Assembly: GCA_019244235.1 (NCBI GenBank)
Contig: JAFASY010000016.1
Coordinates: 1-34,968 of the forward strand
Reading direction: 5' to 3'
Source: Chroococcidiopsidaceae cyanobacterium CP_BM_ER_R8_30
GTDB lineage: Bacteria; Cyanobacteriota; Cyanobacteriia; Cyanobacteriales; Chroococcidiopsidaceae
Length of the DNA: 34,968 nucleotides
The notes under the pieces were generated by a model, which searched no databases, had not been told where the DNA came from, and was given only the letters and a program-made list of their open reading frames with translations. A program made the translations under genes and the position numbers. Shown here in pieces: positions 1 through 27,799 of this stretch. Position 1 is the first letter of the stretch; every line of letters begins with the position of its first letter.

Positions 1-276
1 CTGTGTTTCACAATGCAGCATTGGTTGAAATAGAGATTGAGCAATCCAAAATCGCTTAATCGGCATTCCAGGATCTAAGGAAAACCATTAGCTGATAGCT
101 TATCTTATATCTTGCAGCAGGTTACATTGATATCCATCTACCAATTTAAGCCGAGACACTTTGCAGACTAGATTTTTAAGACTTTGCCGACTTTTTAGAG
201 ATTCTGGGCGGGGGCAGTCCCATCTGCTTCACTACCAAGAAAAGCAGGAAATTCGGTTACAAGACAGCCAGTTGCA

Positions 277-573
277 CTACACCGCAGCCAACTGTTTCAG
301 GATTTGAGCCACTTGATAAAGTTCATTGCCTTCACCAGTGCTCAACGTTCCGCTGGAGGCGGCTCCAGCGGCTGCGTTGAGCGAGTTCAAAGTGAACTTA
401 TCTGACAGGGCATATTGCAAAGAGAAGCGATCCAACTTAACAAATAGGTAATCCTCACCCGTTGTAATCAGGGCAAAAACCGGAGAGACTGACGCGCCCA
501 TCATGTATGCTAAGGTTTGTGCGATCGCCTGCCGAACACTAAAGCCATAACGTTTACTTTCAATTACAATCAG
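277..573 (-). pseudogene. 5'-truncated restriction-endonuclease-like (HsdR-type) remnant
   Basis: Reading leftwards from 573 the frame starts with LIVIESKRYG and runs through a conserved-looking C-terminal half (PVFALITTGEDYLF, YALSDKFTL, ELYQVAQILKQL) to a TAG at 277-279. The VIESK stretch looks like the ExK part of a PD-(D/E)xK nuclease core. The whole resembles the C-terminal part of the small proteins often labelled 'type I restriction endonuclease subunit R' in cyanobacteria (family recalled from memory). The N-terminal half is missing. The frame is closed upstream by the TAG at 574-576, which is also the stop of the methyltransferase in the same frame, so the deletion joint must lie close to 574. 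An ORF of 75 codons can be opened at the ATG ending at 504, but it would lack the motif. The segment 340-382 is a palindromic repeat read as a Gly/Ala/Ser-rich insert. Most likely a dead remnant. Confidence 0.6.
340..382. repeat. Nested palindromic repeat inside the HsdR-like remnant
   Basis: The outer arms GCTCAACG (340-347) and CGTTGAGC (375-382) are perfect complements. Inside them CGCTGGAG (351-358) and CTCCAGCG (363-370) form a second perfect 8-bp stem with a GCGG loop. The 32 bases 341-372 match 22752-22783 at 29 positions by eye, so this is a dispersed element and not a chance hairpin. Confidence 0.8.
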
Positions 574-1179
574 CTATCCCAAAGAATTTTCACCCACGCG
601 CTCAAACAAATCAATTCGGTATTTCTCTGCCCGCTTGCCCCCTAGATGCTGAAGCTGTGACGAGGGTAACGCCAGGAATGCTTCATGTACCTCATCCCCA
701 CTCAACGGGTTGTCATAATAATCCGCGTAAGGCGTCCAGTGAACCAGCAGCAGGTGTCCTCCTGGTTCGAGATGATCTAGGATCAGTTGTTGGGCTGCTT
801 TAAGATCTTGCCAACACCAGTAGTATCCAACTTCCGACAGTACCGTGAGGTCAAACCATTCATCTGGATAGGATTGTGGCACCTGCATGAGTTGAAAGCG
901 GACGTGAGGCAGATGCTGACAACGTACGATCGCCTGCTGTTGAGCCTTGTCTGATACATCAACTGAAAGCAGTGAATCACATCGCTCGGCCAACATTTCT
1001 GTCAGTACACCGATCGAACCACCAATCTCGAATGCAGAATGATAGCGAGGTTTGGGTAATGCTGCTAGTGTAGCGGCATATTTCTCTGCCTCGTAATCGC
1101 TAGTTTCAAATTTCCAGGGGTCAGAATCTGTTTTGTAGAGTGCGTCAAAGTATTCGGGTGTAAGAGATTGTTGAGACAA
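574..1179 (-). CDS. NodS-like SAM-dependent methyltransferase
   Basis: A 201-residue class I methyltransferase. The N-terminus (TPEYFDALY, DPWKFETSDYE) and the SAM-binding loop EIGGSIG at residues 51-57 match the NodS-like family. Acidic residues after the second strand (SVDVSD) and a typical motif region (HLEPGGHLLLVHW) follow. NodS itself N-methylates a chitooligosaccharide, but related proteins occur widely outside nodulation, so the substrate here is unknown. It lies 2 bp after the PIG-L deacetylase stop and is co-directional with it and with the acyl-CoA dehydrogenase, so the three are probably co-transcribed. The same gene trio, usually with a glycosyltransferase, recurs in many bacteria and suggests modification of a sugar-containing metabolite. 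The C-terminus runs directly into a truncated nuclease remnant, so the last few residues may derive from a recombination joint. Confidence 0.85.
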   Translation of the reverse strand: MSQQSLTPEYFDALYKTDSDPWKFETSDYEAEKYAATLAALPKPRYHSAFEIGGSIGVLTEMLAERCDSLLSVDVSDKAQQQAIVRCQHLPHVRFQLMQVPQSYPDEWFDLTVLSEVGYYWCWQDLKAAQQLILDHLEPGGHLLLVHWTPYADYYDNPLSGDEVHEAFLALPSSQLQHLGGKRAEKYRIDLFERVGENSLG

Positions 1180-5341: not shown

Positions 5342-5803
5342 TTAATTCGAGCTTGCTCTTTGGAAGTCGCTCTTTGCTACCAAAGAGCGAAACCTTAAGT
5401 TTTTCTGTTCAGCTTGTTTATATGCTGCCCAACCACCATAAGAGGAAATATCAGGCCACTGGTGCTTCTCAACAAGCTCACGAGGATAAAGCATTGCAGT
5501 CACAGCTTTTCCATCCTCCAAAATGACTTTGCCAGGATACATGTTGGGTGGTTCAGTTGCAAGCAAGTAATCGTACTGCTCTAAGGTGAGTTCGTAGACT
5601 TCGCCTGGAATACTAATTCCTCCTTCCTCCACCTCGTAAATAGCTGGATGCCAACCATCAACAGCGGCATGGATACGATACTTGGCTTGCGTTTGGGCAG
5701 GCTCAATGAATTTTGCCGACTGGAGATTCTGGTGATCTGGTTGACCTTTCAAAGCCGAACCGCAAATGAAAACTAGCTTTGAATTCAGGTTGTTTTCTGT
5801 CAT
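5342..5803 (-). CDS. Gamma-glutamylcyclotransferase-fold protein, allophanate hydrolase C-domain-like
   Basis: A 153-residue protein beginning LVFICGSALKGQPDH, with PAIYEVEEGGISIPGEVYEL, LLATEPPNMYPG and AMLYPRELVEKHQWPDIS. I recognise this as a stand-alone version of the small C-terminal domain of allophanate hydrolases (AtzF type), which has a gamma-glutamylcyclotransferase-like fold. Its reaction is not established by sequence; in ureide pathways it may act near allophanate or ureidoglycolate. It follows the allantoinase gene on the same strand with a 136-bp gap containing a GTATACTGTATAC palindrome, so it probably has its own regulated promoter. An AAGGATG sequence lies 10-16 bp before the ATG. 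Assignment to purine/ureide use rests on both family and neighbourhood. Confidence 0.75.
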   Translation of the reverse strand: MTENNLNSKLVFICGSALKGQPDHQNLQSAKFIEPAQTQAKYRIHAAVDGWHPAIYEVEEGGISIPGEVYELTLEQYDYLLATEPPNMYPGKVILEDGKAVTAMLYPRELVEKHQWPDISSYGGWAAYKQAEQKNLRFRSLVAKSDFQRASSN

Positions 5804-20231: not shown

Positions 20232-21413
20232 ATGAACCAAGTACTGACGCTAGTTGTAAAACTTCAACCTACCCCAGAACAGTATACCAAACTCAAGGAT
20301 ACTGCTCTGGAGTTTGCGTCGTGCTGTGAGTTGATCAATTCCTCTGTCAAGCCAACTCTCACTAACCGCAACTCAATCCAGGCAGTGATTTACAACGATG
20401 CCAAAGAAAACTTTAATTTGGTATCTAACCATATCATTAGGGCTTGTGCGAGGGTTGGGGCTAATCGTTTAACTGCGAAACACAAAGGCAGGAAAGTTAA
20501 GGGGTTTAAACCAACCAGTTTTGATTGCGACAAAGATACTTTCACTTTTCGAGAAAAAGACTGGACAGTTAGTTTGAGTACGGTTAGGGGAAGAGAAAGA
20601 ATCACTTTAAATGCTAGTAATTATCATCGCGGTAAGCTCACAGGGCAGAAACCAACTTCCGCTCAGGTTTGTTTACACCGCGATGATAATTTTTATGTGC
20701 ATATTCAGCTTAAATCAGAGACTCCAGAACCTATTCAAATTGGAAAGGTGATAGGAGTCGATTTTGGTCGTCGAGAAATAGCAAAAACGAGTACAGATAA
20801 AGGTTGGGATGGCAAACAGATAAACCAAGTTAGAGATGAATTTGCTAGGGTTCGAGCTTCTCTGCAAAGACGTGCTTCCCAAGGCACAAGGTCTACGCGG
20901 CGTAGATGCCGACAGATTTTGCAACGGTTATCGGGGAGAGAGAGAAGATTTCAATCCTGGCTAAATCACAATATCAGTAAGAGAATAATTACCGAAGCTA
21001 AGGAATTAAACAGCATAGTAGCGATTGAGGATTTAACGGGAATTCGTGAGCGAACAAATGAACAACCCAAGGATAAAACAGAGCGGCGGCGCTCTAATTC
21101 TTGGTCATTTCATCAGTTGCGAAATTTCCTGGAATATAAAGGAATCAAAGAAGGCGTTAAAGTCGTTATTGTCCCTCCTGCTTATACTTCTCAAACTTGC
21201 CATTGCTGTCTTTATCTTGGCGTGAGAACTAACAAGAAATTCAAATGCATCAATCGATCCTGCGATTGGATTGGGGACGCAGACACCAACGGTTCGAGGG
21301 TAATTGCTCTGCTTGGGGCGACCTATGTAAACTCGCCCGTTAAAGGTTCCTGGTTATCTTGTCCTTTGGACGAGACAACTAGAGGGCTATTAAAAGCGTC
21401 TAGCTCAGCGTAG
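20232..21413 (+). CDS. tnpB: TnpB, RNA-guided nuclease of an IS200/IS605-type element
   Basis: 393 residues and apparently intact. It belongs to the TnpB/OrfB family, the ancestor of Cas12, which cuts DNA guided by an RNA made from the element's right end. RuvC residues are D177 (GVDFGRRE), E266 (VAIEDLTGIRER) and D351 (ADTNGS). The zinc-finger cysteines CHCC and CINRSC lie between the last two (about 316-342). The usual NAA after the last Asp reads NGS here. No TnpA (Y1 transposase) is adjacent, so this is an orphan TnpB unit. Residues about 217-225 (ASQGTRSTRRR) coincide with a GC-rich repeat-like DNA stretch. A hairpin spans the stop codon. Whether it still moves depends on a TnpA elsewhere. 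Confidence 0.93.
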   Translation: MNQVLTLVVKLQPTPEQYTKLKDTALEFASCCELINSSVKPTLTNRNSIQAVIYNDAKENFNLVSNHIIRACARVGANRLTAKHKGRKVKGFKPTSFDCDKDTFTFREKDWTVSLSTVRGRERITLNASNYHRGKLTGQKPTSAQVCLHRDDNFYVHIQLKSETPEPIQIGKVIGVDFGRREIAKTSTDKGWDGKQINQVRDEFARVRASLQRRASQGTRSTRRRCRQILQRLSGRERRFQSWLNHNISKRIITEAKELNSIVAIEDLTGIRERTNEQPKDKTERRRSNSWSFHQLRNFLEYKGIKEGVKVVIVPPAYTSQTCHCCLYLGVRTNKKFKCINRSCDWIGDADTNGSRVIALLGATYVNSPVKGSWLSCPLDETTRGLLKASSSA

Positions 21414-21745: not shown

Positions 21746-24700
21746 ATGATTGCCCTACCTGGAATTACCCTTCAAAGCAAAATCTATGAGAGTTCGGCAT
21801 CTTTGGTCTATCGGGGCATTAGAGCAAAAGACAATCGTGCGGTCGTTGCCAAAGTGCTGAAGCAAGATTATCCCTCTCCAAAAGAAATAATTCGCTACAG
21901 ACAAGAATATCAAATTACCAAATCCCTTAACCTTGAAGGAGTAATTGGGGCATACGGTCAGCAAACTTATCAGCGTACACTTGTTATTCTGCTGGAGGAC
22001 TTTGGCGGCGAGTCTTTAGAGCACTGGATGCGGCAACAGCCTGACTTGTTCCCCACGTCCTTATCCAATTTCTTACGATTAGCCATCAATATCACTGATA
22101 TCTTGGGCAGAATTCATGCGGCTAGAGTCATTCACAAAGATATTAACCCTGGCAACATTGTCTTTAATCCAGCTACGGGGGTAGTCAAAATTATTGATTT
22201 TGGCATTGCTACCCGCTTCAACCGCACCAATCCAACCTTTAGAAGTCCTCATGAGTTAGAAGGTACTCTTGCCTATCTGTCACCAGAGCAGACTGGGCGG
22301 ATGAACCGCCTGCTTGATTACCGCACTGATTTTTACTCACTGGGTGTCACCTTCTATGAACTGCTCACCAAGCAGTTACCATTTCCAACTACGAACATTC
22401 TGGAGCTAGTTCATTGTCATATCGCCAAACAGCCTTTTCTCCCGTGTGAGCTGAACGCAGCAATTCCTAAAGCTGTTTCAGACATTGTGATGAAATTGAT
22501 GGCGAAAAATGCAGAAGATCGCTATCAAAGCGCCTGGGGTATCAAAGGAGATTTAGAACGTTGTGCAGCACAACTTACAGAAACAGGGCAAATTGGTAAT
22601 GTCCAACTGGGTCTACAAGAGGTTTCCGATCAGTTTCACATTCCCCAGAAGTTGTATGGACGAGAAGCAGAGATTGCAGCATTATTAGCAGCATTTGAGA
22701 GAGTAGGAAGTTCTAAGTTCTCAGTTTTAAGTTCTCAGTTAGAAAGCCCAACTCAACGTTCCGCTCGAAGCCGCTCCAGCGGCGCGCCCTTTGCAGCTCA
22801 AAACTCAGACCTCAAAGCTCAAAACTCGCTCACTGAAATGATGTTGGTTTCTGGCTACTCCGGAGTTGGCAAATCAGCCTTAGTGCAAGAACTCTACAAA
22901 CCCATCACAGCAAAGTGCGGCTATTTCGTCTCTGGTAAGTTTGACCAATTTGGGCGCAACATTCCCTACAGCGCGATCGCCCATGCGTTGCAAAAGTTGG
23001 TGCAACAACTGCTAGGTGAACCTGATGCACAATTGCAACAGTGGCGATCGCGCCTACTTACAGCATTAGGTAGCAACGGACAACTCATAATTGATGTGAT
23101 TCCGGAGGTTGAGTTAATCATTGGCAAGCAGCCACCTGTGCCGTCCGTTGGAGCAACGGAAGCCGAAAACCGCTTCAATCGTGTCTTTGGGCAGTTTATT
23201 CGGGTATTTTGCTCTAAAGAACATCCGCTGGTCATTTTCCTAGATGATTTGCAGTGGATCGACTCCGCCACAATTCAGTTAATCGAACTAATGCTGCTTG
23301 ATGAGCAGACTCAAGCTCTGTTTTTGATTGGAGCTTATCGAGATAATGAAGTGAGTTCAACTCATCCATTAGCACTAGCGCTGGAGAGACTGCGACAACA
23401 AGGAGCAACGCTTCAGACGATTAATTTGGCACCTTTAACTTTAGAACCGTTAGCTCAATTGGTGGCCGAGACACTTCATCAAAATCCCAGCATTGCTCGT
23501 CCTTTGGCTGAATTAGTGCTGCGTAAAACCGAGGGTAATCCCTTCTTCGTGGGTGAATTTTTACGATCGCTGTACAGTGAGAATCTATTAAACTTTAATA
23601 TTGAGCAGCGAAGCTGGCAGTGGAACATTACTCAGATTGAAGCTCAGAATATTACCGATAATGTCGTGGACTTGCTGCTGAGCAAGTTGAAGAAACTACC
23701 AGAGGGAACACAGCAGATTCTTCAATTAGCCGCTTGCATCGTGGCTGAATTTGATCTGGAGACGTTGGCGATCGTGTGTGAACGATCGCCTGAAGTTGTT
23801 TTTCAGGATTTATTAACAGCGATAGAAACTGGATTCATTCAACCCCTCTCTGAGTTAGACGAAGACTTGTTAGTGCAAAACTATAAGTTCTTGCACGATC
23901 GCGTTCAGCAGGCAGCTTACGATCTAATTGATGAGTCAAATAAACAAATAGTCCATCTTCAAATTGGTCGTAATTTGCTTAAAGAAGCGTTGCCAAATCG
24001 ACTATCAGATCGACTATTTGAAATTGTGTATCATCTCAGTCATGGGATTAAACTGATTACTAATCAAGCAGAACGAGATGAAATTGCCAGATTGAACTTG
24101 ATGGCAGGTCAGAAAGCAAAAGCCGTGATCGCTTATAACACTGCTCAAAACTATTTGGCTACTGGAAGAACGTGGCTAGCTGGTTCTAGCTGGCAAACAA
24201 ACTACGAGCTGACCTTAGAGCTATATCTAGAGACGACAGAAGTCGCATATTTGTGCGGTGAGTTTGAGCAGGTAGAATCTTGGGCAGCGATCGTTCTAAA
24301 AGAAGCTGAAACGGTTCTTGACAGCGTAAAAGTTTACGAAGTCAAAATTCAGACCTATATCGCGCAGGGTCAGCCATTAAAAGCAATCCATTCCACATTA
24401 CAAGTTCTGCCACAATTTGGGATTAGTGTCCCCGAACAGCCAAGCCAATCAGATATTCAGATTGAACTAGACGCAATCTCACACCTCTTTAGACAGAAAT
24501 CGATCGAGGACTTGACTTATTTGCCAGAAATGAGCGAACCGGATAAGTTAGTAGTGATGCGAATTCTATCTAGAATTACGATTTCGTCTTGGATTGCTGC
24601 TCCTGATTTAATGGTGCTACTGGTATCTAGACAAGTCAGCTTGTCAATAGAGTATGGGAATGCGATTGTGTCTCCCTTTGCATATGCCAACTTTGGATTA

Positions 24701-27700
24701 ATTCTATGTGGAAAGGTTGGAGATATTGAGACGGGCTACAAATTTGGACGGCTCGCTTTAAGACTGTTGTCGCACTCCAATATTCATTCACTTAGTGCTA
24801 GAACATTGCTGATTGTGAATGTTTTCATCATTCATTGGAAAGAGCATATTAGAAACACTTTTCAGCCATTACTCAAAGCCTACCACAGTGGACTAGAAAC
24901 CGGAGATTTGGAGTTTGTTGCCTATGCCGCTCACGCTTATTGCTTCAACTTCTACACGGTTGGAAATGAACTCATAGAAGTTAACCGCGAGATGACAATA
25001 TACAATGAGGCAATCTGTCGCATTAAACAGGAAACGGCGCTGACCTGGAATCAAATATTCCAGCAAGTGGTCGCAAATTTGATGGACTGCTCAAACAATC
25101 CAATCCATCTAGCTGGTGAATTTTACAATGAGAAAGATAGATTACCACAACATGAAGTAGCAAATGATGGAACTTCGATTTTTGATGTCTATGCTAATAA
25201 ACTTCTCCTATGCTATCTATTTTCTGAGTACGACCAGGCAGTCGGGAATGCAACGATAGCAGAGCACTATTTGACCCAAATAGTCGGCACAGCTTTTGTT
25301 CCTATTTATTACCTCTATGCTGCTTTGGCAAGACTTGCCATATACATTGAAAGCAGCGTTGAGACACAGGCAGAAATTCTGGAAAAAGTTGCTGTTAGCC
25401 AGGAGAAAATGAAGCAATGGGCGCAATATGCACCCATGAATTATTTACATAAATATCATCTGGTACAAGCAGAAACGGCGAGAGTTTTGGGTCAATTGTT
25501 TGAGGCAGAAGAATTTTACGAACAAGCCATTCAGGGTGCTAAAGAAAACGAGTATCTTCAAGAAGAAGCTTTAGGCTATGAGTTAGCTGCCAAATATTAC
25601 CTAGCTCGTGGTCGAGAAAAGATTGCCCAGCTTTACATGAAGGAAGCTCGTTACTGTTATGAACGTTGGGGAGCAATTGCAAAGGTCAAAGATTTAGAAA
25701 TTCGCTATCCACAGTTCTTTCATCAGTCGTCAGGCATAGCTGACACGCCAATTCACACCTCTGCTGGAACCACTTCTAACACCTCATCTGTCGCTTTCGA
25801 TTTAGTAACGGTGATGAAAGCCTCTCAAGCGATTTCAAGTGAGATTGAACTAGAACAGTTACTTCGTTCTTTGATGCAGATCCTAATTGAAAATGCTGGG
25901 GCACAAACCGGATGCTTGCTTTTGGAAAACGCAGGAGAATGGACGATCGAGGCTGCTTGTGAACTGGCTGAGGGTGAGCAGGTCTGTGCTACACAAGTGC
26001 TACAATCGATGCCAATGGCAAATCGCTTACCCGAATCCATCATTCAGTATGTGATCCGGACTCATGAATCGGTCATCTTAAATAATGCGACTTGTGAAGG
26101 TAATTTTATTCATGATCCCTACATTCAACACAATCAAACTCAATCCATTTTCTGTTTGCCGCTGCTGAATCAGGGCAAGCTTGTGGGCGTGCTGTATTTA
26201 GAAAATCGACTAGCAACTGGAGTATTTACCTCTGATCGAGTCTCCGAAGGAGACGCTACGCGAACGCAAGTTTTGCATCTGTTATCAGCCCAGGCAGCGA
26301 TTGCGATCGAAAATGCCAAACTCTATTCCAAGCTACGGAAGAGCGAAAGTCAGATGGCTCAATTCTTAGAGGCGGTTCCAGTGGCAATTGCAGTAGTGGA
26401 TGCGGATGGTCGTCCTTATTACGCCAATCAACGGAGAATTCAGCTAGTAGGTAAAGAGATCGATCCTGCTGTGACAGCGGATCGGTTCGCAGAGGTTTAT
26501 CAGTTTTATCGAGCGGGAACCGATTGCAAATATCCAAGTGAGCAACTGCCAATCGTCCGTGCATTACGCGGTGAGCGTATCACGGTTGATGATATGGCAA
26601 TTCACCGAAACGACGCTACAATTCCGATTGAGGCGTGGGCAACGCCAGTCTTTGACGAACAGGGCAATGTGGCTTATGGGATCGTAGCCTTTCAAGACAT
26701 CTCAGAGCGGAGACGAGCAGAGCGACTGCTAGCCGATTACAACCGCACCCTAGAGCAACAAGTCGCAGAACGAACGGCAGCATTGCAGGCAAGTGAAGCA
26801 GAACTACGGGCATTATTTGCATCAGTTCCCGATCCACTTTTTGTGTTAACGGCTGAGGGACGAGTGGTGAAGGCAGTCGAAGTTGGGGTAGATCGATTAT
26901 ACAGACCCATTGAAGAACAGATGGGTAAAACCCTGCACGAAATCTTCTCACAAGAGCAAGCCGATCAATTCCTAGATTACATTCACCAGGTTCTTAGCAC
27001 TCAACAAATACTCACTGTTGAGTACAGCTTACTGATGGCTGGGAAAGTAACTTGGTTTTCGACTCGCATTGCACCCATCCGATCCAATCAAGTGATTTGG
27101 TTGGCACGAGACATCACCGAACAGCGAAACGCTGCACTACGTGAACGCAAACGTGCTGAGGAAGCTTCCATTTTGGGAGAGCGCAACCGCATGGCGCGAG
27201 AGATTCACGATACGTTAGCACAGGCTTTTACAGGCATTTTGCTCCATGTAGGATCTGCAACACAAAGGCTGACAAGTGGTCTGGAAGCAACCCAGATCCA
27301 TCTGGAAGTGATGGAAAAGATTGATGAACTAGCCCGAACCGGACTTGCTGAAGCTCGTCGTTCAGTGGCAGCGCTCCGTCCCCAACTGTTAGAAGAGGGT
27401 ACTTTACAGAGTGCCTTGCATCGCCTCGTAAATCAAATGCGAGCGACTAGCAGTACCATTTTGAGCTACGAAAGCAAAGGTGTAGTTTACTCCCTGCCAA
27501 CCGAAGTGGAAAATCACTTACTCCGGATTGGGCAGGAAGCCTTGACAAACGCCATCAAATACGCCAAAGCTGGCAAAATTCTAGTTGAGCTGGTGTACGA
27601 CGATGCTCAATGTCTTTTGCGCATTAAAGATAATGGGCAGGGCTTTGGAGTTGGTAGTATTACATCACTGGGTGGCTTTGGCTTGTTGGGAATGAGTGAA

Positions 27701-27799
27701 CGAGCAGAGCAGATTGGAGCACAACTGGCGATTCAAAGCCAACCTGGGCAGGGAACAGAAATTATTGTCACTGTCAATCGGGAGCAAAAATCACCATGA
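21746..27799 (+). CDS. Giant hybrid: Ser/Thr kinase - AAA ATPase - TPR-like - GAF - PAS - PAS - histidine kinase
   Basis: 2017 residues. Residues 1-270 are a Pkn2-type kinase with K36 (VAKVLK), the catalytic loop H130-K131-D132 with NPGN, and D151-F-G. A predicted ATPase of the MalT/STAND kind follows: Walker A GYSGVGKS at 370-377 and Walker B IFLDDLQWID near 495. A long helical TPR-like region runs to about 1340. A GAF domain spans about 1370-1525, PAS domains start near 1537 and 1687, and the HisKA_3 motif REIHDT gives phospho-acceptor H1821. An HATPase with EALTNA near 1931 and DNGQGFG then GGFGLLGM closes the protein. This architecture is well known in cyanobacteria. It overlaps the response-regulator gene by ATGA, so the pair acts together. 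Two repeat-derived inserts are present: about 321-361 between kinase and ATPase, and 1500-1507 inside the GAF domain. Confidence 0.95.
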   Translation: MIALPGITLQSKIYESSASLVYRGIRAKDNRAVVAKVLKQDYPSPKEIIRYRQEYQITKSLNLEGVIGAYGQQTYQRTLVILLEDFGGESLEHWMRQQPDLFPTSLSNFLRLAINITDILGRIHAARVIHKDINPGNIVFNPATGVVKIIDFGIATRFNRTNPTFRSPHELEGTLAYLSPEQTGRMNRLLDYRTDFYSLGVTFYELLTKQLPFPTTNILELVHCHIAKQPFLPCELNAAIPKAVSDIVMKLMAKNAEDRYQSAWGIKGDLERCAAQLTETGQIGNVQLGLQEVSDQFHIPQKLYGREAEIAALLAAFERVGSSKFSVLSSQLESPTQRSARSRSSGAPFAAQNSDLKAQNSLTEMMLVSGYSGVGKSALVQELYKPITAKCGYFVSGKFDQFGRNIPYSAIAHALQKLVQQLLGEPDAQLQQWRSRLLTALGSNGQLIIDVIPEVELIIGKQPPVPSVGATEAENRFNRVFGQFIRVFCSKEHPLVIFLDDLQWIDSATIQLIELMLLDEQTQALFLIGAYRDNEVSSTHPLALALERLRQQGATLQTINLAPLTLEPLAQLVAETLHQNPSIARPLAELVLRKTEGNPFFVGEFLRSLYSENLLNFNIEQRSWQWNITQIEAQNITDNVVDLLLSKLKKLPEGTQQILQLAACIVAEFDLETLAIVCERSPEVVFQDLLTAIETGFIQPLSELDEDLLVQNYKFLHDRVQQAAYDLIDESNKQIVHLQIGRNLLKEALPNRLSDRLFEIVYHLSHGIKLITNQAERDEIARLNLMAGQKAKAVIAYNTAQNYLATGRTWLAGSSWQTNYELTLELYLETTEVAYLCGEFEQVESWAAIVLKEAETVLDSVKVYEVKIQTYIAQGQPLKAIHSTLQVLPQFGISVPEQPSQSDIQIELDAISHLFRQKSIEDLTYLPEMSEPDKLVVMRILSRITISSWIAAPDLMVLLVSRQVSLSIEYGNAIVSPFAYANFGLILCGKVGDIETGYKFGRLALRLLSHSNIHSLSARTLLIVNVFIIHWKEHIRNTFQPLLKAYHSGLETGDLEFVAYAAHAYCFNFYTVGNELIEVNREMTIYNEAICRIKQETALTWNQIFQQVVANLMDCSNNPIHLAGEFYNEKDRLPQHEVANDGTSIFDVYANKLLLCYLFSEYDQAVGNATIAEHYLTQIVGTAFVPIYYLYAALARLAIYIESSVETQAEILEKVAVSQEKMKQWAQYAPMNYLHKYHLVQAETARVLGQLFEAEEFYEQAIQGAKENEYLQEEALGYELAAKYYLARGREKIAQLYMKEARYCYERWGAIAKVKDLEIRYPQFFHQSSGIADTPIHTSAGTTSNTSSVAFDLVTVMKASQAISSEIELEQLLRSLMQILIENAGAQTGCLLLENAGEWTIEAACELAEGEQVCATQVLQSMPMANRLPESIIQYVIRTHESVILNNATCEGNFIHDPYIQHNQTQSIFCLPLLNQGKLVGVLYLENRLATGVFTSDRVSEGDATRTQVLHLLSAQAAIAIENAKLYSKLRKSESQMAQFLEAVPVAIAVVDADGRPYYANQRRIQLVGKEIDPAVTADRFAEVYQFYRAGTDCKYPSEQLPIVRALRGERITVDDMAIHRNDATIPIEAWATPVFDEQGNVAYGIVAFQDISERRRAERLLADYNRTLEQQVAERTAALQASEAELRALFASVPDPLFVLTAEGRVVKAVEVGVDRLYRPIEEQMGKTLHEIFSQEQADQFLDYIHQVLSTQQILTVEYSLLMAGKVTWFSTRIAPIRSNQVIWLARDITEQRNAALRERKRAEEASILGERNRMAREIHDTLAQAFTGILLHVGSATQRLTSGLEATQIHLEVMEKIDELARTGLAEARRSVAALRPQLLEEGTLQSALHRLVNQMRATSSTILSYESKGVVYSLPTEVENHLLRIGQEALTNAIKYAKAGKILVELVYDDAQCLLRIKDNGQGFGVGSITSLGGFGLLGMSERAEQIGAQLAIQSQPGQGTEIIVTVNREQKSP
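22700..22835 (+). repeat. Repeat-derived in-frame insert in the kinase linker
   Basis: The stretch begins with two tandem-like copies built from TAAGTTCTCAGTT (22710-22740). It continues with a 32-bp unit at 22752-22783 that matches 341-372, including the stem GCCGCT/AGCGGC at 22770-22783, and ends in two copies of GCTCAAAACTC (22796-22826). Its translation (SVLSSQLES, RSARSRSSGA, AAQNSDLKAQNS) is low-complexity. In homologues as I remember them the flanking protein joins directly. Confidence 0.75.
26240..26263 (+). repeat. 24-bp palindrome-bearing insert in the GAF domain
   Basis: GTCTCC-GAA-GGAGAC (26240-26254) is a perfect stem, followed by GCTACGCGA. It encodes roughly SEGDATRT between TSDRV and QVLHLLSAQAA, where the usual GAF sequence runs DRVQVL without a gap. 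The length is a multiple of three, so the frame is kept. Confidence 0.7.

Follow-up and report, generated by a model that had tools for sequence, protein, structure and literature searches.

Palindromic elements that code for protein are known from Rickettsia and Wolbachia, whose genomes are reduced. Among cyanobacteria, the small dispersed repeats (SDRs) of Nostoc, reportedly presented by Elhai et al. in 2008, are said to be hairpins of 21-27 nt with compensatory stem changes and a setting in heptamer arrays, which were inferred to be mobile. Spread via an RNA intermediate was reportedly proposed for them by the same authors. SDR5 inserts precisely in HIP1 (PMC4390886). The Rickettsia palindromic elements (RPE) occur in frame in unrelated conserved protein genes and also in intergenic positions, and the encoded peptide is tolerated. 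They measure ~105-150 bp; the first report listed 19 intragenic cases, and a host enzyme that was tested stayed active (PMC2229807, PMC10969869). REP sequences and REPINs are short hairpins with a fixed tag at the foot and a high copy number, presumably mobilised by a Y1 HUH transposase (RAYT) acting in trans (PMC3733652, PMC3116915). IS608 carries hairpins at its ends, inserts 3' of a fixed tetranucleotide (TTAC) and is cleaved on the right at TCAA, while the target of ISDra2 is TTGAT (PMC5934647).

The DNA analyzed here, the window, comprises 34,968 nucleotides and is contig C244 in the draft genome, 5.54 Mb in size, of a cyanobacterium. An earlier note had reported a 32-bp palindromic repeat in two unrelated coding regions. 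Direct comparison of positions 341-372 and 22752-22783 confirmed identity at 29 of 32 bases. The match stood as the core of the repeat, but not as its length, the full unit being 50 bp (341-390 and 22752-22801). The repeat pattern was found two times in the window, whereas 100 dinucleotide shuffles produced none; together with more than 100 related copies genome-wide, this rules out a chance similarity. Copy 1 (341-390, forward strand) has the full two-stem form CTCAACG..CGTTGAGC-GAGTTCAA and was matched by the second covariance model, R2, with 67.1 bits (E 3.9e-16). Copy 2 (22752-22801, forward strand) has the 3' variant GCGCCCTTTGCAGCTCAA and a partly decayed inner stem (R2 56.8 bits, E 2e-13). 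Folded as DNA, copy 1 has the strong stem claimed for the repeat (-18.3 kcal/mol, z -5.0, matched by none of 200 shuffles), whereas the degraded copy 2 does not (z +0.2). A probable third, divergent copy of 53 bp (50+3) is located at 5347-5399 on the reverse strand (R2 20.9 bits, E 4.9e-4). Its inner stem differs from that of the other copies yet pairs perfectly, TCGCTCTTTG-GTAG-CAAAGAGCGA; the stem has been fully re-paired (CGCTCTTTG/CAAAGAGCG), which suggests that further subfamilies may have been missed by the covariance model. This copy supplies, in frame, the C-terminal tail of a short ORF (5342-5803, reverse strand).

The full unit reads CTCAA-[hairpin]-AAGCTCAA. It is bounded by CTCAA on both sides, and the hairpin consists of a 9-bp inner stem and a 4-nt loop, to which the longer form adds a 7-bp outer stem. 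Three consensus forms were obtained, CTCAACGTTCYGCYGGAG-NNNN-CTCCRGCRGCTGCGTTGAGCAAGCTCAA, CTCAAGGCTTCGCCGGAG-NNNN-CTCCGGCGACTTCCTTGAGCAAGCTCAA and CTCAAAGGTCAGCCGGAG-NNNN-CTCCGGCTGCTGCTTTGAGCAAGCTCAA, and a further form ends in GCGCCC(G/T)TGCAAGCTCAA at the 3' end and lacks the outer stem. In folding, the consensus forms reached z scores between -4.5 and -5.2. Of 126 copies, 108 have CTCAA as their 5' pentamer and 92 have GCTCAA as their 3' hexamer. Compensatory changes were found at the stem pairs 6-36 (GC/CG/AU), 11-30 (CG/UA/AU), 10-31 and 14-27 (both CG/UA), so that two positions, 6-36 and 11-30, show three pair types. The covariation score was 0.237 versus 0.131 in shuffles (0 of 500 reached 0.237), and slid controls gave 0.05-0.12.

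A loose pattern detected 18 copies in the own genome versus 2 in the reversed control. The exact inner palindrome GCYGGAGNNNNCTCCRGC was present 54 times in the own genome, five times in the same-family genome G010 and 0-1 times in 58 other relatives; the control gave none. A first covariance model, built from 14 copies, yielded 104 matches at E up to 1. R2, built from 53 copies of one length and applied at E up to 0.01, yielded 129 matches in the own genome, seven in G010 and a single marginal match in each of the genomes G004 and G011; the remaining 15 same-family genomes had none. A phylum-wide covariance search returned no copies in 385 further genomes, with 15 candidates scored per genome and hence little weight, and an exact-pattern scan of GTDB genome contigs, using a narrow pattern, gave no match. 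Among the sampled genomes, the element family is nearly confined to its own species.

Sequence context was available for 126 copies. A copy was counted as intragenic if it lay in an open frame spanning 150 codons or more, with 30 or more codons to either side of the copy (fewer at the end of a contig or locus). This applied to 63 of the 126 copies, and no site had a second qualifying frame. The intragenic copies measured 50 bp (61 copies) or 92 bp (one copy, 50+42), and one was a truncated match. Elsewhere, lengths of 50 (29 copies), 51 (18), 52 (6), 53 (4), 49 (4), 46 and 56 bp occurred. Lengths compatible with the frame were thus found in 63 of 63 copies in ORFs, the truncated match included, versus 34 of 63 elsewhere (Fisher p = 5e-11), and 29 of the 63 non-ORF copies have lengths that would break a frame. 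Random 50-bp windows from the same loci fell in qualifying ORFs in 66% of cases. The intragenic share of 50% lies near the 56% expected if only closed-frame insertions had been lost (p 0.18). The predicted read-through peptide is rich in Gly/Ser/Ala or Pro/Ala, e.g. TQRSAGGSSGSAPVQAQ and LNVLPEAAPAALSKL. Mitochondrial byps are hairpin elements inserted in ORFs and bypassed in translation. Being likewise a hairpin inserted in ORFs, the cyanobacterial element might be removed as a mini-intron or skipped by the ribosome, leaving the protein unchanged. A skipped element would not have to preserve the frame, yet all in-gene copies are of frame-compatible length and occupy stop-free frames, and a removal at the RNA or ribosome level is therefore considered highly improbable.

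The frames used in genes were +2 (34 copies), +0 (19), -0 (7), -2 (3) and +1 (0). The codon phases in which host ORFs carry CTCAA, multiplied by frame openness, give expected numbers of 24.6, 15.6, 6.6, 13.4 and 2.7 copies, respectively. Frame usage tracks this product, which supports CTCAA as the target. The raw ratio of sense to antisense copies was 53:10, versus 43 sense copies expected (p 0.006 after correction for target phase and open frames). A strand bias was rejected as a mechanistic signal, the sense excess being mostly due to these two factors. What deficit is left concerns the -2 frame; its product is an Arg-rich peptide, and the shortfall suggests selection at the peptide level. 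Multiple and composite insertions were also observed. MurC (L066, C207:1038-1132) carries at least two tandem element copies in a linker, all in frame. A condensation domain of a nonribosomal peptide synthetase (NRPS; L045, C28:8404-8453) contains a composite insert of ~90 bp, in which the element is accompanied by related GCTCAA-bounded modules, and similar composites recur on the contigs C78 and C215.

Orthologues were compared from other genera of the same family, and the insertions are dated against these other genera only. An exact gap of 15 residues (45 bp) was found in the orthologues of Tex, a gamma-glutamyltranspeptidase, a Cu-ATPase and a PHP-domain phosphoesterase. For Tex, 75 of 80 named cyanobacterial genes match over exactly 171 codons versus 186 in the own genome, and the structurally characterized Tex of Pseudomonas is likewise gapped where the element lies. 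A gap of 14 residues was obtained for an OmpR-type response regulator with a degraded copy, and the comparison of MurC orthologues showed a multi-copy insert. The clearest case at the DNA level is the kinase paralogue C82, which has likewise gained exactly 15 residues (45 bp). The empty site in the sister genome reads AAT GCT CAA TTC AAC. The filled site reads AAT GCT CAA [GGC TTC GCC AGA GAA AGC TCC GGC GAC TCA AGA GCG CAA GCT CAA] TTC AAA, and the gained 45 bp end in GCTCAA, the same as the target. Empty sites with the pentamer were found in one orthologue each of the PHP-domain protein (AAA-TTG-AGC) and Tex (TCT-CTC-AAT), while several others have a near match, CCCAA or CTGAA, and not the exact CTCAA. 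At the compared sites, the element constitutes a net gain of 45 bp over an empty site with CTCAA or a near match.

These empty sites bear on two further explanations. A classical MITE, mobilized by a DDE transposase, would have CTCAA as its target site duplication of 5 bp; this fits the direct CTCAA on both sides and the net gain of 45 bp. However, a duplication copies any target that is hit, whereas CTCAA occupies 108 of 126 5' ends here, and the 45 bp between the pentamers lack terminal inverted repeats. The near-invariance of the pentamer disfavors this reading, which is judged improbable. An immobile conserved element, whether a functional RNA, a terminator hairpin or a REP-type regulatory palindrome, would agree with the strong hairpin and with half of the copies lying outside ORFs. 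It is contradicted by 63 copies in unrelated genes, of which those compared are missing from orthologues with clean empty sites. A search of the window against Rfam at gathering thresholds gave no match either, and a known RNA family was rejected on this result. The probability of an immobile hairpin is considered very small.

The two main copies in the window lie in their host genes in the orientations given in the earlier note. Copy 1, read antisense, adds its residues between FTL and GNELY in a fragment of an HsdR N-terminal-like family (286-573, reverse strand), recognized from its translation and homologues. Of 18 other same-family genomes, 13 contain homologues, and the own genome has paralogues; ~29 of these sequences were aligned, own-genome paralogues included, and all lack the insert. 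Pfam gave no match for this fragment, and the family name derives from the earlier note and a reading of the homologues. The frame is open from an upstream in-frame stop, and the fragment may be a pseudogene. A methyltransferase-like ORF (574-1179, reverse strand) continues in frame into the fragment, separated from it by a stop codon; the arrangement looks like a fusion of two gene remnants or an interruption of one gene.

Copy 2 is read in sense direction in a protein of 2017 amino acids (21746-27799, forward strand) composed of a Ser/Thr kinase, an AAA ATPase and a sensor kinase (Pfam Pkinase 15-260, AAA_16 363-528), and lies in the linker joining the kinase and AAA domains. In orthologues this linker is short and variable, too variable for a clean 45-bp empty site, and the element is present in none. 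The same linker of the kinase paralogue C82 took an independent copy. Some 330 bp upstream of the giant kinase, a TnpB-like protein is encoded (20232-21413, forward strand), with a Cas12f1-like TNB domain and OrfB_IS605 just under the Pfam cut-off; no TnpA was present beside it among the listed ORFs. To the left of copy 2, the linker contains a heptamer-like array, AGTTCTA/AGTTCTC/AGTTTTA (22710-22743, forward strand), and to the right an inverted one, AACTCAG/ACCTCAAAGCTCAAAACTC (22802-22828, forward strand), both read from the sequence. The latter includes CTCAA, the target of the element, and the copies in G010 likewise lie within CTCAA-containing heptamer arrays.

The nesting in heptamer arrays at copy 2 and in G010 is a point in favor of an SDR-like element spreading via an RNA intermediate instead of a DNA transposase. 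Such a spread would also agree with the similar size class, a hairpin kept by compensatory changes and the slight sense excess (53:10, 43 expected). The fixed pentamer at both ends and the exact gain of 45 bp, in contrast, resemble the recognition of a DNA target, and the sense excess arises mostly from target phase and open frames. An RNA intermediate is regarded as unlikely.

The repeat is neither limited to two copies, with ~129 in the genome, nor retained in all orthologues, where the inserted bases are missing, and every in-gene copy preserves the frame, typically with a net gain of 45 bp. This makes the earlier description, a miniature, possibly mobile, protein-modifying repeat, a fair one that, as far as sequence comparison can tell, largely holds. 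With the mobilizing enzyme left aside, it is highly probable that the copies represent a very small mobile palindromic family with a 50-bp unit, a 45-bp gain, ~129 copies, preservation of the frame and selfish spread. The element would spread as selfish DNA into CTCAA sites, and insertions in genes would survive where the frame is free of stops and the site tolerates a flexible loop.

A resident HUH transposase of the IS200/IS605 type would act in trans on the single-stranded hairpin and cut at TTGAG/CTCAA. Mobilization by such an enzyme is a tentative best guess and the least certain step of the mechanism. The own genome harbors at least nine Y1 transposase loci (PF01797). A search for a transposase-bearing parent had been suggested in the earlier note; in covariance searches with R2, no ends resembling the element were found at these loci. 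Two ordinary copies lie 0.7-1.2 kb from PF01797 loci. An IS605-like element with divergent tnpA and tnpB exists in two copies with 91% identity (L091 on C273, L092 on C320). Its tnpA-side end is GCTCAA, while the opposite end lacks CTCAA, and this terminal GCTCAA at one end is all that it has in common with the hairpin element. Inside the IS605-like end lies a GC-rich palindrome, CCGGAGGCGGAGCGTCTCCGG (CCGGAGGCGGAGC(G/A)TCTCCGG). This palindrome recurs alone at two other sites, on C189 and C91, and was rejected as proof of IS605-like parentage because it is a separate repeat. The full reading is put forward as a doubtful one: an element of 45 nt, which would rank with the smallest mobile DNAs known, would be carried into CTCAA sites by a resident single-strand HUH transposase working in trans, and would recently have put 15-residue flexible linkers into ~60 proteins of a single free-living cyanobacterium, among them the conserved enzymes MurC, Tex and RsgA.

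Compared with the known systems, the cyanobacterial element resembles REP and REPIN sequences as a short, high-copy hairpin with a fixed tag at the foot. It differs from REP, with a GTAG/CGTC tag and a mainly extragenic position, in its near-invariant foot CTCAA/GCTCAA and in the 50% of copies in ORFs, and no associated RAYT was found. It shares with IS200/IS605 elements (IS608, ISDra2) the hairpin, a fixed target of 4-5 nt and the presence of resident TnpA copies in the genome, but has no transposase inside and one hairpin only. Classical MITEs have terminal inverted repeats and variable target duplications, in contrast to the direct, near-invariant CTCAA ends observed here. With the Nostoc SDRs it has in common the nature of a tiny cyanobacterial hairpin repeat, compensatory changes and the setting in heptamer arrays. 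The 50-nt unit and the CTCAA target set it apart from them, by description only, as their size is reportedly 21-27 nt.

The Rickettsia and Wolbachia palindromic elements are similar in forming a stable stem-loop palindrome that occurs in frame in unrelated conserved genes and is absent from orthologues. RPE, however, measure ~105-150 bp with terminal inverted repeats and reside in intracellular bacteria, whereas the present element has a net length of 45 bp with direct CTCAA pentamers at the ends, and a free-living cyanobacterium as host with ~63 in-frame copies versus 19 intragenic RPEs. A 50-bp unit in a cyanobacterium has neither the length nor the Rickettsia-specific sequence of RPE, a distinction by description, not by sequence. 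By analogy, the cyanobacterial element appears to work like RPE and is not RPE. It fits the complete definition of none of the systems against which it was tested, and it combines an RPE-like action with an SDR-like size and setting. If this is true, natural in-frame linker mutagenesis of conserved proteins would not be peculiar to decaying endosymbiont genomes. With 50 nt, a known target and resident TnpA candidates, the element would offer a minimal system for the mobilization mechanism of such elements. It would also present a larger case than RPE, with a fixed target and empty sites that differ cleanly by 45 bp, in a free-living phototroph with a genome of 5.5 Mb.
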